From: Pyrinomonadaceae bacterium
Lineage (GTDB): Bacteria > Acidobacteriota > Blastocatellia > Pyrinomonadales > Pyrinomonadaceae
Assembly (NCBI GenBank): GCA_030841085.1
Contig: JAVEDP010000018.1
Span: forward strand, 62,001-126,000
Reading direction: 5' to 3'
DNA: 64,000 nucleotides
Part shown: in pieces, positions 9,637-16,385 of the stretch
How positions within the stretch are numbered: the first letter of the stretch is position 1
Layout of the letters: every line of letters begins with the position of its first letter
Made by a program: the position numbers and the translations under genes
The notes under the pieces: model-generated
Database searches by the model: none
What the model was told of the DNA's origin: nothing
What the model saw: only the letters and a program-made list of their open reading frames with translations

Positions 9637-10640
9637 TCGTGGCCGGAATGGGCTCTCGCGGCAGGGACTGGGTGCGCGAAATTAGAGCAGCGCCCGCTTA
9701 TGAACTTGCCGGCTGCAGCGACATCGATCAATACATTCTGCGAGACGCTGCCGGCGCGTTGAATATTCCACAGCAGTCTTGTTTCCCGGACTTGCAAGAA
9801 GCAATTGAGCAAACGAATTGCGATGCGGTCGTTGTCGCTACTTCCGCCGATTGTCACACCGAAGCCTGCAACGTTGCGCTAGCGAAACGGATCGCAGTGT
9901 TGGTGGAGAAACCTTTTACAGTCAGTCTGAAAGACGCCGTTGCCTTAGTCTCACTCGCGGAACGACAAGGCGTCCCGATCCTGGTGGCCCAAAATTTTCG
10001 TTACATGCGTGCCTTCCGCACCGTTAAGCGTCTGATAAGCGATGGCGCACTCGGCAGAATCGGCATCGTCACTTGCCAGTATTACGCTCCCCCTCATCAG
10101 ATGGCGGCGTCGCTTGCGGCACTGCAAAACAGCGTGCTCTGGGGAATGAGCGTCCATCACCTTGATGCGTTGCGTTACGTTTTAGGAAAGGAAGTAAGCG
10201 GCGTGGCGGCTGAAAGCTTTACGCTGCCGTGGGGCAGACTTCCGCCGGGAGCTTCGTTGCAGGTGCTGTTAACTTTTGCAGACGAAATACGCGCTTCTTA
10301 CACCGCTACTTATGAATCAAGCGGACACCAGTTCTTTGAACGCGGTCAGGAATTCTACGCGCGCTTTGTAGGCGAACGCGCCACTCTGCACGTTTTTCAG
10401 CGCTGGCTGATCTTGTGCGAAAACGGAAAGTTGCCGCGGCTGGTAAGGCGCGGCGCCAGAACGTTGACGGAAGAAAGAATTATTCTCGATCAATTCGAGC
10501 GCGCGTTGCTGACGGGTGTTGAGCCGGATTCCAGCGGCCGCGACAATCTACAAACAATGGCCGTGGTTGAAGCGTGCTTGCGATCCGCCTCTGAGCGGCG
10601 CTGGATTAATCCGCAGGAGCTGCTCAATGACTACCGCTAA
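9621..10640 (+). CDS. Gfo/Idh/MocA-family oxidoreductase
   Basis: 339 residues from ATG 9621, overlapping the glycosyltransferase stop. The N-terminal Rossmann domain has VVVAGMGSRGRDW (a GxGxxG variant) and the family signature VLVEKPFTV at about 95, with the EKP lysine that acts in catalysis. A C-terminal alpha/beta domain follows (SVHHLDALRYVLG, with histidines placed as in sugar dehydrogenases of this family). Probably NAD(P)-dependent oxidation or reduction of a sugar or cyclitol. The operon context suggests it modifies a glycan precursor or activated sugar. Confidence 0.88.
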   Translation: MALKVVVAGMGSRGRDWVREIRAAPAYELAGCSDIDQYILRDAAGALNIPQQSCFPDLQEAIEQTNCDAVVVATSADCHTEACNVALAKRIAVLVEKPFTVSLKDAVALVSLAERQGVPILVAQNFRYMRAFRTVKRLISDGALGRIGIVTCQYYAPPHQMAASLAALQNSVLWGMSVHHLDALRYVLGKEVSGVAAESFTLPWGRLPPGASLQVLLTFADEIRASYTATYESSGHQFFERGQEFYARFVGERATLHVFQRWLILCENGKLPRLVRRGARTLTEERIILDQFERALLTGVEPDSSGRDNLQTMAVVEACLRSASERRWINPQELLNDYR

Positions 10641-12126
10641 CGGCGGGAACGTCCTGGCGATCGGAATCGACGCGGCTGAGTCTACGCTGGTGCGGCAGCT
10701 CATCGAACAAGATGAAATGCCGGCGCTGAAGTCGTTGCTGGCGGATGGCAAATGGTTGCGCGTGCAGTCTCCGGCACACATCGGCAGCGCTGCGGTCTGG
10801 CCCACGTTCATGACCGGCGTCGAACCCGGAACGCATGGGGTCTACAGCGAGTGGAGCTGGAGGCCGGAGTCTATGAATCTCAGCCGTTACAACGGCCTGC
10901 ACCTGACGCCGTTTTGGACGCTACCAGCTCTACAAAATGTTCGAGTTGGAGTTTTCGATGTGCCCTTCGCCCAGCCGGTTGGTATGTCGGACGGATTTGA
11001 GGTCTCCGAGTGGTGGGCACACGACACGACGGATGCGGGTCTTCAGGCCGGTCCAAAAGAAATTCTTTCGCTGGTGAAAAGATCACCCGGGCATCCGCTG
11101 TCCGCTAACCGCTTCGTCAACACCACGCCGAATAATCAAATCAATCTGAAAGAATTGACCGCGGCGTGTGTCGAAGGTGCGCGCTTGCGGGGCCAGTTGG
11201 CACAAACGTTAATCAGGCAAACCAAACCACGATTATCGTTAATGGTGTTTCCGGAAATTCATCACGCGGGCCATCAGATGTGGCATACAGTCCAACCCGA
11301 TCATGGGGTCTACAACGCGCGAAATAGAATTGATGGCCACCCGCAGGAGCCGCTGCTGAAAGAAGTTTATCGGGCGGTCGATGCGCAAATCGCGAAGTTG
11401 ATCGAAGCCGCAGGTAGCGATGCCACGGTTATGGTTTTTGCGCTTCATGGAATGCGGCCGGCGTTGGGGTTCCCCGCGTTCCTCGCTCCGATACTTTGCG
11501 AGCGTGGTTTTTCTCACTTGGCTAACTGGCGTTCGCAGTCGTGGGCCAAACGCGCGCTCTCTTTGTTAGCAGCAATCAAACGCCACACGCCTGACGAATT
11601 CAAAAAGCTCTATTACCGATTGACGCCAACGGTGGCAACTCACAAGTTAGCCCGGCCAATCATGCTACCGGCATACGATTGGGCGAACACGCGCGCGTTT
11701 TCTTTACCGACCGATCAGTATGGATGGATTCGCGTTAACTTGATCGGACGAGAGGCACAAGGAAGTGTCCCTTTTGATCAGTATGACGAAACCTGCGGTC
11801 AGCTAAAGGATTTATTACTGGGCCTGGTTAACGATGATGGGCAGCCGCTGGTGCAGGATGTGGTCCGCACAGCCGCGAACGCAGAGAATGCGCTGAACAA
11901 TCCGCTTCCGGATCTCGTGGTCCACTGGCACGACGCCGCGTTCGCATGGCCGGTCAGAATCAAGGGCAGCAAGGTTCGCGCTGAGCCCGTGGGTAAGAAG
12001 TCCACCGGCCAACACGCGTCAGAAGGGTTTTGTATTTACCGTGGCGCTAACGCTCAGGACTTAGGCGGCGTGGTGGCTGCTTCAGACCTGAGCCGTTTGA
12101 TAATTGGAAGTCTTAATGTCCGATAA
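10627..12126 (+). CDS. Alkaline-phosphatase-superfamily phosphodiesterase-like protein
   Basis: 499 residues from ATG 10627, overlapping the preceding stop by 14 bp. It begins with the type I phosphodiesterase pattern VLAIGIDAAESTLVRQLIEQ followed by MPALKSLLADG, then SAAVWPTFMTGVEPGTHGV, where a Thr/Ser nucleophile region is expected. Metal-ligand segments appear as FPEIHHAGHQMWH and later LPDLVVHWHDAAF. No signal peptide is seen, so it probably acts in the cytosol. Together with the two upstream genes it forms a three-gene glycan-related operon; substrate unknown. Confidence 0.8.
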   Translation: MTTANGGNVLAIGIDAAESTLVRQLIEQDEMPALKSLLADGKWLRVQSPAHIGSAAVWPTFMTGVEPGTHGVYSEWSWRPESMNLSRYNGLHLTPFWTLPALQNVRVGVFDVPFAQPVGMSDGFEVSEWWAHDTTDAGLQAGPKEILSLVKRSPGHPLSANRFVNTTPNNQINLKELTAACVEGARLRGQLAQTLIRQTKPRLSLMVFPEIHHAGHQMWHTVQPDHGVYNARNRIDGHPQEPLLKEVYRAVDAQIAKLIEAAGSDATVMVFALHGMRPALGFPAFLAPILCERGFSHLANWRSQSWAKRALSLLAAIKRHTPDEFKKLYYRLTPTVATHKLARPIMLPAYDWANTRAFSLPTDQYGWIRVNLIGREAQGSVPFDQYDETCGQLKDLLLGLVNDDGQPLVQDVVRTAANAENALNNPLPDLVVHWHDAAFAWPVRIKGSKVRAEPVGKKSTGQHASEGFCIYRGANAQDLGGVVAASDLSRLIIGSLNVR

Positions 12127-12140
12127 ACTTTAGTTTGTCG
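12121..12140. repeat. REP-like palindrome left of the RAYT gene
   Basis: GATAAACTTTAGTTTGTCG lies between the phosphodiesterase stop and the transposase start. Its counterpart (CCGACAAACTTTAAGTTT) is at 12880-12897, followed by a second palindrome ACAAGCTAAAGCTTAT at 12930-12945. Such flanks are typical of a RAYT gene embedded between its own REPs. Confidence 0.6.
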
Positions 12141-12169
12141 AAGTTCTACGCAATCATTCAAGTCTGACA

Positions 12170-12895
12170 ATGGCCCATCTCGAATTTAAGCAATTCACCT
12201 GGCGTCGTCGACCCCACATTCATCCACCCGGTGCGCGATTATTTGTAACGTATCGTTTGGCAGGCTCGATTCCACAATCTACATTACGTGAATATAGGGC
12301 GAAGAAAGAATGGCTTGAGAACGAACTGAAACGAGCACGAATAACGGAGCAAGACGAGGGAACTCCAGAACTTAAGAAATCGCTCGAACGAATCGAAATA
12401 TTTCACCGCGATTGGTTTCTGAAATTCGAGGCGATTCTTCACCAAGCTAAGGTCGGGCCAATGTGGATGCAAGATGAAAAAGTGGCAGACGCGGTTGCGG
12501 ATAGCCTGCGGGCGTTAGACGGCAAAGCTTACAGATTGGATGCGTATTCCGTAATGTCAAACCACGTCCATACCATCTTTTAACCATTCGTTTCCGAAAA
12601 CAATTTACAAGAGACGAGGGATAAGAATGGGCATCCAGTCTTCACCAGTGAGTACCCTAGCCTGGCGCAAATAATGCAATCCCTGAAAGGTCGTAGCGCG
12701 CGGGAATGCAATCTGATCTTGTCGCGCTCCGGAGGTTTTTGGGAGCACGAGAGCTTCGATCATGTAATTCGCCCAGGAAAGTTCAATGCCACGATGAGAT
12801 ACGTGCTGAACAATCCAGTCAAAGCGGGTCTAACAAAACATTGGCGAGACTGGCGATGGAACTACTGTCGCAAAGAACTGTCCGACAAACTTTAA
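12170..12895 (+). pseudogene. RAYT (REP-associated tyrosine transposase), interrupted by one stop
   Basis: A single frame would give about 241 residues, but a TAA at 12581-12583 splits it. Frame is preserved across the stop (IF-stop-PFVSENN then IMQSLKGRSARECN), so one base change, likely AAA to TAA, explains it. Family hallmarks: RLFVTYRL near the N-terminus, the HUH-type motif SNHVH just before the stop, and the C-terminal FWEHESFDHVIR and MRYVLNNPVKAGL. The catalytic Tyr is expected in the second half. Probably inactive unless the stop is read through. It may be the past source of the REP elements in this region. Confidence 0.85.
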
Positions 12896-12953
12896 GTTTT
12901 TTCGCTCGTTTGTACCCAAGCTAGCGACAAGCTAAAGCTTATCGGACAAAATT

Positions 12954-15900
12954 CTACCGGATCGTTTTGATCGGTCCAGCCGGCTTCGGCGCCAACTTCA
13001 CCGGTGTCTTCAGCCGCGCCATCACTTCCGCGATGCCGCGTTCGAGTTGTGCGTCCCGTCCTTCAATCTCGGACTTTGGATCGTTGTCGACTTCGATGTC
13101 CGGATCGACACCATAGCCCTCTATGATCCAATTGCCGTTTTCATCGGCCAGCCCAAAGCCAGGAACAAAAACAGTGCCGCCGTCCATTAGCGGTCCGCGG
13201 CTTTGAATGCCAACCACGCCGCCCCACGAACGTTTACCAATCAATGGACCAAGTCCCGCTTTGCGAAACATGTAGGGGAAAATATCGCCATCGGAAGCCG
13301 AGTTTTGATCCAGCAACGCAACCATCGGTCCTACAAACACCGCATCAGGATAAGTGATAGCGTCGTCGTCGGTGCGTTCGTAATTAAGGCCTAACAACTT
13401 TCGCCGCAGTCTTTCAATGAGCATGCGCGATACGTTGCCGCCACCGTTGGCCCGCACGTCGACGACCAATCCTTCTTTGCGAATTTGCGGGTAGTACCAT
13501 TTGATGAATTCGCGAATACCGTTCGCGCCCATGTCGGGGATGTGGATGTAGCCGACGCGGCCGCCGGTCGCCTGGTCCACCTTGCGCCGGTTCTGATTAA
13601 CCCAGTCGAGATAGATCAAATTTCCTTCGTCGGTAATCGGTCGATAAGAAACGATGCGCGCGCCTGCGAGCGTTGGCGTCTTGTTCACTGTCAATGAAAC
13701 GGGGTTATCGGCCTTGAACCGCAACAGACGATAGGGATCGTCAGTGCCTTTCAACTCTTCGCCATCGATCGCCAGCACGTAGTCGCCGACGTTGATGTTG
13801 ACTCCGATTTCATGCAGCGGCGAGCGATAAACATCCTCTTCGTTCTCGCCTTCGAAAATTTTGGAAATGCGATAGCGACCCGATGCCTTGTCCAGTTCAA
13901 AACGTGCGCCCGGTAATCCACTGCGCGGCCGCGGCGGGATTTGAAAATCGCCGCCCTCAATGTAGGCATGCTGGATCGTTAACTCCGAAATCATTTCGCT
14001 GATCACGTAATTGAGATCAGAACGATGCGAAACGTATTGCAACAGCGGACGATACTGCTCGCGCAAAGCGGCCCAGTCGTAACCGTGCATGTTGGGGACG
14101 TAAAAGAAGTCGCGATAACGCCGCCAGACTTCGTTGAATATCTGGTTCCATTCTTCCGCGGGAACACGATCCACAAACATCCCCGAAGTCGAGACAGGCT
14201 TTTTGGTCTTATCGCCCTGCGGCGTGGCGTCGTAGATGTTGTAACCCGGCCCCTGCGCGACCAGCAGTTTTGAGCCGTCGTCGGACATGGTGTAGCCGCG
14301 AATGTCTTCCGCGATTGTTGATTCCTTGCGATCCTTGAAAGCAAAGATTTTCAAAACTGTCGGACGATCACCGTTGCGTCCGTAATAGAAAGCCGAGCCG
14401 ACTGCATAGATCAAATGTCCGGTCTTTGCCGAGATGCCACCATAGTTGTCAGCCGCCACCGGAACGCGGGCGACGCGCGTGCCGATGCCATCGAAGTCGA
14501 TCGTCATGGGCGCCTGTGATTTCGCGGCGGTGTCAGACTTAGCTTCGCCCGGAGCCGGTGTCGGTGTTTTCTCAGCATCCGGAGTTGGCTCTTGCACCGG
14601 CTCCTTCGCCGGCGGTTTCAACTCCTTATTAATGTCTTTGGCTGGTTTTTTCGGCTCTTCGCCGGGCGGCATGCCAGCGGGCTTTGGCGTCTCATCGGGT
14701 TTGCCGATCGTTACCTCATCGCTTTCCGGAGGAAACGGATGTTTGACGTCTTTACGCAAAGCCATGGCGTAAATGTAGGCGGTGCGATTGGTCGCATAGT
14801 TGAATTCTATCTGCGAGATCTGTGGCTGAAACTCACGATCGCTGAGAAAGTAAAGATAGTTTCCCTGGGGATCCCACGCCGGGCTGTAGGAATTGAACAT
14901 GTCGTCCGAGACGCGGCGCAGCTTGCCGTCACTCACGCCCCAAACGTAGATGGCCGAAAAACGGTTCGGACCGGCATTCATGCTGAAGGCAAGAAAATTT
15001 CCCCGCGGCGACCAAACGTAATCGCGAACCTGGCCGTGCGGCTCATCGGCAATTTGAATGATCTTGTGATCGGCGAGCGTCACTACATAAACTTTTCCGT
15101 CCTTGTCGCTGAACGCGATGCGCTTGCCATCAGGCGCCCATTCAGGTTGATAACGCATCGCCTGGCCGCCGCTGGTAATCTGCTCGGCAGGCTTCAGTCC
15201 ATCCTGCGGCATGACGTACAACTCTTCTTCGCCGGTGCGGTCGGAAATGAAAGCAATGCGCGACCCATCGGGAGACCAGGCCGGCCACTTGTCATGCGCG
15301 CCTGACGAATGCGTCAGATTCCGCGTTGGGCCTTTCTCGATCGGCGCCGTAAAGATATCGCCACGCGCGGCAAACAGCGCGCGCTCGCCTTTGGGACTGA
15401 TTCCGACGGATTCAATGAAACTGGAAACTGCAATATGGCTGGGACGACGCGACAGTCCTTCGTCAGGAACGGTAATAGAAATGGGCGTACTGCGATTGCT
15501 TTTGGTGTCGAGCACTTGAAGCTCGCCATTTAATTCGTAGACGATCCGGTCCTCATTGTCCGAGCTGGGCCAACGCACGTCGTATGTCTTGTTGCTGGTT
15601 ACTTCAGTAGTCTTGCCGCTGCCGGTGTCGTAGGAATACAGATTGAAATGTCCATCGCGATCGGAGTTGAAGTAGATCGTACTGCCAACCCACATTGGAT
15701 CGCGTGTCGCGCGCGGGCCTTCGGTAATCCGTTTGGTGGCGTAGGTTTTCAGATCGAAAGTGTAAAGCGCATTTGCCTGACCGCCGCCGTAACGCTTTTC
15801 CGATCGAAAATCGCGCGACTGCGGCGAGTAGACCATCTGGTCCGCGTTCGGAGAATAATCGCCCGAACCAGCTTCCGGCATTGGCAATGGTTCCGCTGGT

Positions 15901-16385
15901 CCACCTTCAACTGAAACTGAGAACAGTCGCGCGATGGGCAGCGCCCAGGAATCGCGCAACGAACGGAAAAAGATCCGCTTGCCGTCGCGGCTCCAGCCAT
16001 AGACCTGATTGTCCCAACCCCAGCGCGGCGCCAATGGTCCCTTGGCAGGATAAAAAGTAAGTTGCCGCGGCACGCCGCCTGTCGCGGGCACAACATAAAC
16101 CTGCTCGTCGCCGTCGTATTGCCCGGTGAAAGCAATCCACTTGCCGTCAGGAGAAAATCTGCCAAATACTTCCATGCCCGGATGTGCCGTCAGGCGAATC
16201 GCCGAACCCCCGGCAGCCGACGCGGTCCATAAATCTCCGCCGTAAGTGAACACCACGCGGTCGCCGTAAATGTCCGGAAAACGAAGCAGCTTCGTCTGGG
16301 AAAAGACGGTAGTCGTAAGACCGAACGCGAACATCAGAAAAATCACGGAGCTGATGAGACGATTAAGTACGCGGCGATTGAACAA
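12954..16385 (-). CDS. Tricorn-type S41 protease
   Basis: 1143 residues. Signal peptide (SSVIFLMFAFGLTTTVFSQ) then a long WD40/PD40 propeller region with repeated FSPDGKWIAF, WSPDGSRIAF, WAPDGKRIAF motifs (residues 30-550). A Pro/Lys/Glu-rich linker covers about 550-620, then a core with a PDZ-like segment (INVGDYVLAIDGEELKG) and the S41 catalytic domain, where LLDQNSASDGDIFPY holds the nucleophile Ser. The GGNVSRMLIERLRRK stretch is also typical. Probably a periplasmic or outer-surface peptidase degrading peptides. Monocistronic. A REP palindrome cluster lies upstream. Confidence 0.93.
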   Translation of the reverse strand: MFNRRVLNRLISSVIFLMFAFGLTTTVFSQTKLLRFPDIYGDRVVFTYGGDLWTASAAGGSAIRLTAHPGMEVFGRFSPDGKWIAFTGQYDGDEQVYVVPATGGVPRQLTFYPAKGPLAPRWGWDNQVYGWSRDGKRIFFRSLRDSWALPIARLFSVSVEGGPAEPLPMPEAGSGDYSPNADQMVYSPQSRDFRSEKRYGGGQANALYTFDLKTYATKRITEGPRATRDPMWVGSTIYFNSDRDGHFNLYSYDTGSGKTTEVTSNKTYDVRWPSSDNEDRIVYELNGELQVLDTKSNRSTPISITVPDEGLSRRPSHIAVSSFIESVGISPKGERALFAARGDIFTAPIEKGPTRNLTHSSGAHDKWPAWSPDGSRIAFISDRTGEEELYVMPQDGLKPAEQITSGGQAMRYQPEWAPDGKRIAFSDKDGKVYVVTLADHKIIQIADEPHGQVRDYVWSPRGNFLAFSMNAGPNRFSAIYVWGVSDGKLRRVSDDMFNSYSPAWDPQGNYLYFLSDREFQPQISQIEFNYATNRTAYIYAMALRKDVKHPFPPESDEVTIGKPDETPKPAGMPPGEEPKKPAKDINKELKPPAKEPVQEPTPDAEKTPTPAPGEAKSDTAAKSQAPMTIDFDGIGTRVARVPVAADNYGGISAKTGHLIYAVGSAFYYGRNGDRPTVLKIFAFKDRKESTIAEDIRGYTMSDDGSKLLVAQGPGYNIYDATPQGDKTKKPVSTSGMFVDRVPAEEWNQIFNEVWRRYRDFFYVPNMHGYDWAALREQYRPLLQYVSHRSDLNYVISEMISELTIQHAYIEGGDFQIPPRPRSGLPGARFELDKASGRYRISKIFEGENEEDVYRSPLHEIGVNINVGDYVLAIDGEELKGTDDPYRLLRFKADNPVSLTVNKTPTLAGARIVSYRPITDEGNLIYLDWVNQNRRKVDQATGGRVGYIHIPDMGANGIREFIKWYYPQIRKEGLVVDVRANGGGNVSRMLIERLRRKLLGLNYERTDDDAITYPDAVFVGPMVALLDQNSASDGDIFPYMFRKAGLGPLIGKRSWGGVVGIQSRGPLMDGGTVFVPGFGLADENGNWIIEGYGVDPDIEVDNDPKSEIEGRDAQLERGIAEVMARLKTPVKLAPKPAGPIKTIR

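Follow-up and report, generated by a model that had tools for sequence, protein, structure and literature searches.

Genes for REP-associated tyrosine transposases (RAYTs) have been described as lying between two inverted REPs, the downstream one being sometimes situated exactly at the gene's stop codon (PMC2817692). The motif Y---NP is given as the tyrosine signature of class-2 RAYTs in the accessible part of PMC6006769, which also reports repeats without the GT[AG]G head for RAYT subclasses 2.6 and 3. The role of the head as a guide of cleavage is supported in one REPtron (Mb) in what is available of PMC8266576. Nonsense and frameshift mutations of RAYTs, 'indicative of recent pseudogenization', are reported in PMC3686654, together with REP counts for the affected genomes and a model in which the REPs decay slowly. 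According to the available sections of PMC3733652, REPs with the head CGTC, or TGTC in many repeats, seem to be without a dedicated transposase, the REPtrons of CGTC/TGTC-headed REPs are proposed to have been lost early, and RAYT-like genes between terminal repeats (TIRYTs) are present in Acidobacteria. As far as the accessible portions of PMC3686654, PMC2817692, PMC6006769 and PMC3733652 extend, the phenomenon treated here is thus already known.

The window, the whole analyzed stretch of 64,000 nucleotides from a Pyrinomonadaceae bacterium, is part of a genome assembly (G000) that comprises 43 contigs and 4.69 Mb. It includes a RAYT frame of 241 codons (12170-12892, forward strand) with a single lesion, an in-frame TAA at 12581-12583. 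The stop divides the frame into an N-terminal part of 137 aa (12170-12583, forward strand), which contains the HUH motif NHVH and ends with the residues ...SNHVHTIF, and a C-terminal part (12584-12895, forward strand) with FWEHESFDH, the tyrosine motif YVLNNP and a stop codon of its own, TAA at 12893-12895. Since the premature TAA is located between NHVH and YVLNNP, the two halves of the RAYT active site are separated by it. Both the single stop in an otherwise continuous transposase frame and the motifs on its two sides were thus found as the initial annotation had described them. Residues N131, H132 and H134 of the HUH motif and Y211, N215 and P216 of Y---NP were invariant in all nine aligned rows, the combination of these two motifs being the one that characterizes RAYTs. 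The TAA falls in a column with varied residues in the aligned relatives, and among the nine rows only that of the window has a stop there.

When the stop was read as X, the NCBIfam family NF047646 (REP_Tyr_transpos) matched residues 100-230 across it (E 5.5e-16), with a score of 58.8 bits that is below the curated cut-off of 80 bits, as is also the score of an intact relative in the same genome, L079 (71.1 bits). Of the two halves, the C-terminal one alone gave an E value of 2.8e-12 and the N-terminal one alone only 0.047. Pfam search of the halves produced no usable match for either, and the genome search with Pfam Y1_Tnp (PF01797) found 15 places, including neither the window RAYT nor L079.

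The gene is flanked by two inverted REPs of 24 nt each, an A-type REP on the left (TGTCCGATAAACTTTAGTTTGTCG; 12117-12140, forward strand) and a G-type REP on the right (TGTCCGATAAGCTTTAGCTTGTCG on the reverse strand; 12925-12948). They are 92% complementary, and when folded tag-first each forms a hairpin immediately after TGTC, with a stem of 8 bp and the loop TTTA (z -2.97 for the left and -3.79 for the right REP). REP-like palindromes had been claimed for both sides of the gene and are there; the boundaries proposed for the feature, 12121-12945, fall 3-4 nt short on each side, as the REPs extend from 12117 to 12948. A third REP (12879-12902, forward strand) overlaps the RAYT stop, and with its 3' arm damaged it folds no better than shuffled sequences (z -0.29); at the corresponding site of G005, an assembly of the same genus, the 3' arm is still present. 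These three were the only REP sites in the window at ≤3 mismatches, while 0.00 were expected from 100 shuffles.

The REPs also overlap with coding sequence: the upstream ORF (10516-12126) terminates inside the left one, at the TAA 12124-12126, and in the third one positions 12879-12895 code for the C-terminal end of the RAYT and include its stop. The frame of the upstream gene in G005, read by eye, meets a stop just before the REP. The same gene, which is open in the window, has two stops in its matched part in G005 (L093 / G005:C103).

Comparison of the flanking REPs with those of the whole genome, a check proposed in the initial annotation, identified them as members of a genome-wide family of 82 sites (≤3 mismatches; reversed control 0). 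REPs do lie at the gene, but to call them local is therefore too narrow. At this threshold the 82 sites were divided into 58 clusters, 24 pairs and 34 singles. All 24 pairs were oriented head to head, their two REPs inverted and separated by a short spacer, as in REPINs. A spacer of 8 nt, often CGGCGTTA, was present in 13 pairs, and each of these joined an A-type half (AAACTTTAGTTT) with a G-type half (AAGCTTTAGCTT), as assigned by the nearest master. The 11 pairs with other spacers, the right side of the RAYT itself among them, included five A+G pairs, five A+A pairs and one tie, and A+G pairing is thus not a general rule. The two ends of the RAYT correspond to both halves of a REPIN, the A-type on the left and the G-type on the right, with their heads outward. 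Outside the G-type REPs the six adjoining bases show partial conservation (GTTTGA in front of TGTCC; 43 sites), and outside the A-type REPs hardly any (37 sites), one pair with overlapping arms (C12:59330) being left out of the count; the REP element may reach a few bases beyond the REP on one side only.

At six sites of the genome (L015 at C31:371855, L028 at C31:227953, L033 at C9:105473, L205 at C2:81816, L213 at C20:29587 and L235 at C29:29275) a repeat of about 300-400 bp with the ends GGAAGCTCTGAACAAGT...ACTTGATCAAAGCTTCC lies within a REPIN, in the loop of its second REP. Neither end of the repeat was found within the window, and a seventh site, C16:46557, was left out as it aligned in its first bases only. 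In the three sites that were read at both ends, four loop bases stand on both sides of the repeat in the manner of a target duplication, identical in two of the sites and different by one base in the third. The first REP of these REPINs is of the G-type at four sites and of the A-type at two, and because of this variation the insertions look independent. The repeat looks like a miniature element that targets REP loops; insertion sequences targeting REPs are known from the accessible part of PMC1525189.

Altogether 17 Y1/RAYT-like places, merged by hand from separate genome searches, were recognized in the genome. The window RAYT alone touches REPs of this family, the next closest being 1.8 kb away. 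As the sole adjoining place of the 17, the gene first proposed as the source of local REPs becomes instead the cognate RAYT of a genome-wide family. When 81 loci were scanned for these REPs, they were present at seven, from three places (G000, G005 and G012, the last also of the same genus), and a scan of 24 loci from the genus and family searches found them again at G012 and G005 and also at L294 and L297, with one weak site in L295 far from the gene. Forty further stretches around RAYT-like matches in G000, G005, G006, G007, G011, G013 and G014 had none. L126 and L131, the same loci as L294 and L297, are from other genera, and the RAYT frame of both is intact and flanked on either side by REPs headed TGTCC or CGTCC.

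In the tree of 101 RAYTs the sequences of G000 and G012 formed a pair (100/99), which was joined by L126, L131 and L058 (96/87). The REP of L058 has the head GTAC on a hairpin very similar to those of the window REPs, and GTAC heads were read by hand at the tree relatives L055, L056 and L058. Because L058 is nested among the four GTCC-headed RAYTs, the GTCC head is not established as a marker of one clade, and that grouping was not adopted, even though holding the four together as one clade was not rejected (AU p 0.085). With these GTAC relatives and the subclasses in PMC6006769, the GT[AG]G head is not strictly defining. There is a loose relation between the last base of the head and the residue that follows the conserved W, Q being found mostly with GTAG and E, A and H more often with GTAC, GTAA and GTCC. 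As a strict code (E/A/H with GTCC/GTAC/GTAA, Q with GTAG) this was discarded, as hand-reading found it broken in both directions, by E or A at GTAG heads (L176, L177, L198 and L295) and by Q at GTAC or GTAA heads (L141 and L166).

The intact relative in the same genome, L079 (C29:105986-106621), is 49% identical to the window RAYT and has a different REP family of its own, GTAAAGCAAACTGTTAGTTTGCGG, with 301 sites (≤3 mismatches), of which 139 are exact. In the family of the broken RAYT, 29 of the 82 sites are exact to one of the two masters, a fraction not significantly lower (p 0.10) in this comparison of counts. Decay of the family, as measured by the fraction of exact copies, was for this reason dropped as a result: the family of the broken RAYT is smaller, and it is not clearly more eroded. 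The missing deficit fits a recent death of the gene and fits a live locus equally, and the REP statistics are also compatible with movement by another RAYT.

Relatives were likewise compared for an intact copy, as had been suggested from the outset. Among the RAYT-like matches that were checked in the 16 genomes of the genus, most of the relatives being draft assemblies, no clearly intact RAYT with these REPs was found, and this type was seen only in G000, G005 and G012; the two intact relatives, L126 and L131, are both in other genera. The RAYT of G005 occupies the same locus, between homologous neighbours, with the same kinds and arrangement of REPs around it, and an internal deletion has left only its last 65 codons. 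The copy of G012 has a frameshift near its start. Only the first ~19 residues are affected, and translation from a TTG that follows them would yield most of the protein, so that this copy may still be working. A profile built of four such RAYTs had matches in eight of the 16 genus genomes, mostly to other RAYTs, and 12 of the 119 genomes of the family matched P0001 at E 1e-20.

The REPs themselves were present in nine of the 16 genus genomes, with 1 to 440 sites (≤2 mismatches). The largest number, 440, was in G007, which gave no match to the RAYT profile; all seven RAYT-like places checked there were without these REPs, in a draft assembly that is 88% complete. Because of G007, REP abundance does not simply follow the presence of the RAYT, unless the draft misses the gene.

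Between the window and G005, dN/dS of the last 65 RAYT codons was 0.097 (bootstrap 0.034-0.206), or 0.083 over 63 locally aligned codons, and these 63-65 codons are all that inform the age of the RAYT loss. In the same comparison the value was 0.042 for the neighbouring ORF (12954-16385), presumably a protease, and 0.143 for the gene upstream, which in G005 is also broken. Comparisons with G012 and more distant relatives were saturated and could not be used. A dN/dS of about 0.10 past the stop suggests that the constraint lasted until recently. If a broken gene drifts freely and the neighbouring ORF represents the constrained rate, the RAYT lineages may, on average, have been free of constraint during about 6% of their separation (0 to 17% over the bootstrap range). 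The initial proposal that the gene has recently died is supported by this value, by the presence of one lesion only in 241 codons, and by the different damage in G005 and G012.

The best explanation, to which we assign a probability of about three in four, is that the locus is a recent pseudogene: the RAYT of a REPtron was inherited under constraint and then cut by a single nonsense change, leaving its REPs orphaned. In its anatomy the locus is a REPtron, with two unlike REPs in inverted orientation at the ends of the RAYT gene, and the same two REP types joined by the 8-nt spacer form the commonest REPINs of the family. By analogy with the studied TnpAREP proteins, the HUH pair of the RAYT and the tyrosine of its Y---NP motif would serve to nick REP hairpins in single-stranded DNA, and REPINs would in this way be copied elsewhere. 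The gene was inherited at this locus under purifying selection, and the nonsense change then presumably split the HUH motif from the tyrosine. A truncated product without the tyrosine would make cleavage by this chemistry impossible, and the REPs would persist as orphans. The RAYT thus seems to be dying out while its REPs live on.

Constraint past the stop also bears on two readings in which the protein is not lost. The gene might be intact and the TAA an error of assembly or consensus, or a minor allele, in keeping with the 43 contigs of the assembly, the presence of only one lesion and the constrained look of the sequence beyond it. This is an unlikely reading, since the separate lesions in G005 (a deletion) and G012 (a frameshift), both from drafts, suggest that loss is the trend. 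Still less probable is that the stop is read through, or that the two halves are made separately and cooperate, so that the locus remains active. The second half does have an ATG at 12674, but it would yield only 73 aa, no ribosome-binding site was seen before it by eye, and no other row of the alignment has a stop at this position. We know of no split RAYTs, and with no start signal a functional split protein was judged unlikely. No result of this analysis favoured either readthrough or a base error.

It is also conceivable, at very low probability, that another RAYT of the genome spreads the REPs and that the window gene is a bystander between two of them. The genome has 16 other Y1/RAYT-like places, and G007 carries its 440 REPs with no RAYT of this type detected. 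The two REPIN halves at the gene ends with their heads outward speak against a bystander, as do the like arrangement in the G005 orthologue, the TGTCC/CGTCC flanks of the intact L126 and L131 in other genera, and the different REP family that belongs to the other RAYT, L079. Under the preferred reading of a recently broken REPtron, the spread of the family by this RAYT and no other is probable.

The genome offers a natural pair, a REP family with a broken RAYT (82 sites) and one with an intact RAYT (301 sites), in a genus where the RAYT seems to have been lost repeatedly while the REPs persist. The published model, in which REPs decay once the RAYT dies, thereby becomes testable outside Proteobacteria, and RAYTs whose REPs are headed TGTCC/CGTCC, of which two are intact, are material for testing the head as a guide of cleavage. 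Apparently new are a REP family that combines the TGTCC head with a RAYT of its own, and the parallel loss of this RAYT within a genus, neither of which was described in the literature covered. It is possible, if doubtful, that an acidobacterial group of RAYTs uses (C/T)GTCC heads and is the missing transposase of the CGTC/TGTC-headed REPs, its disappearance being caught underway in three genus copies with three kinds of damage and up to 440 REPs per genome.

With the RAYT/TnpAREP and REPtron systems, as they appear in the accessible parts of PMC2817692, PMC6006769 and PMC8266576, the locus shares the HUH and Y---NP motifs, two inverted flanking REPs, a dispersed cognate family, dimorphic REPs paired in BIMEs/REPINs and a downstream REP at the stop codon. 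It differs from them in its interrupted gene and in its REP head, which is TGTCC and not GT[AG]G. The pseudogenized RAYTs of Pseudomonas and Stenotrophomonas (PMC3686654, in part) similarly have nonsense, frameshift or deletion lesions with persisting REPs; they belong to another phylum, whereas here three copies within one genus have three lesions and none clearly intact was found. The pairs resemble REPINs as presented in the available parts of PMC8049555 and PMC3116915, in which a short spacer separates two inverted REPs and which are regarded as non-autonomous elements moved by a RAYT, while particular to this genome are the 8-nt spacer in 13 of the 24 pairs and a RAYT whose own ends are two unlike REPIN halves. 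The acidobacterial TIRYTs in the accessible text of PMC3733652 are also RAYT-like genes, and the terminal repeats of Koribacter ORF1552 form a repeated family, but their flanks are long TIRs unrelated to REPs, in contrast to the short hairpin REPs found here. The CGTC/TGTC-tagged REPs of the same source (CGTC or TGTC head, stem of 8-9 bp, loop of 4-5 nt) are alike in having TGTC as head immediately 5' to a stem of 8 bp, in the 4-nt loop (here TTTA) and in forming heterodimers. Their first two stem pairs are A-T and their tail is CCA-like, whereas the stem of the window REPs, CGAYAARC, begins with CG and not AT and is followed by AAG or CTA, and on stem start and tail membership in the CGTC superfamily was ruled out; the published families are, moreover, without a transposase, while here a RAYT is present.
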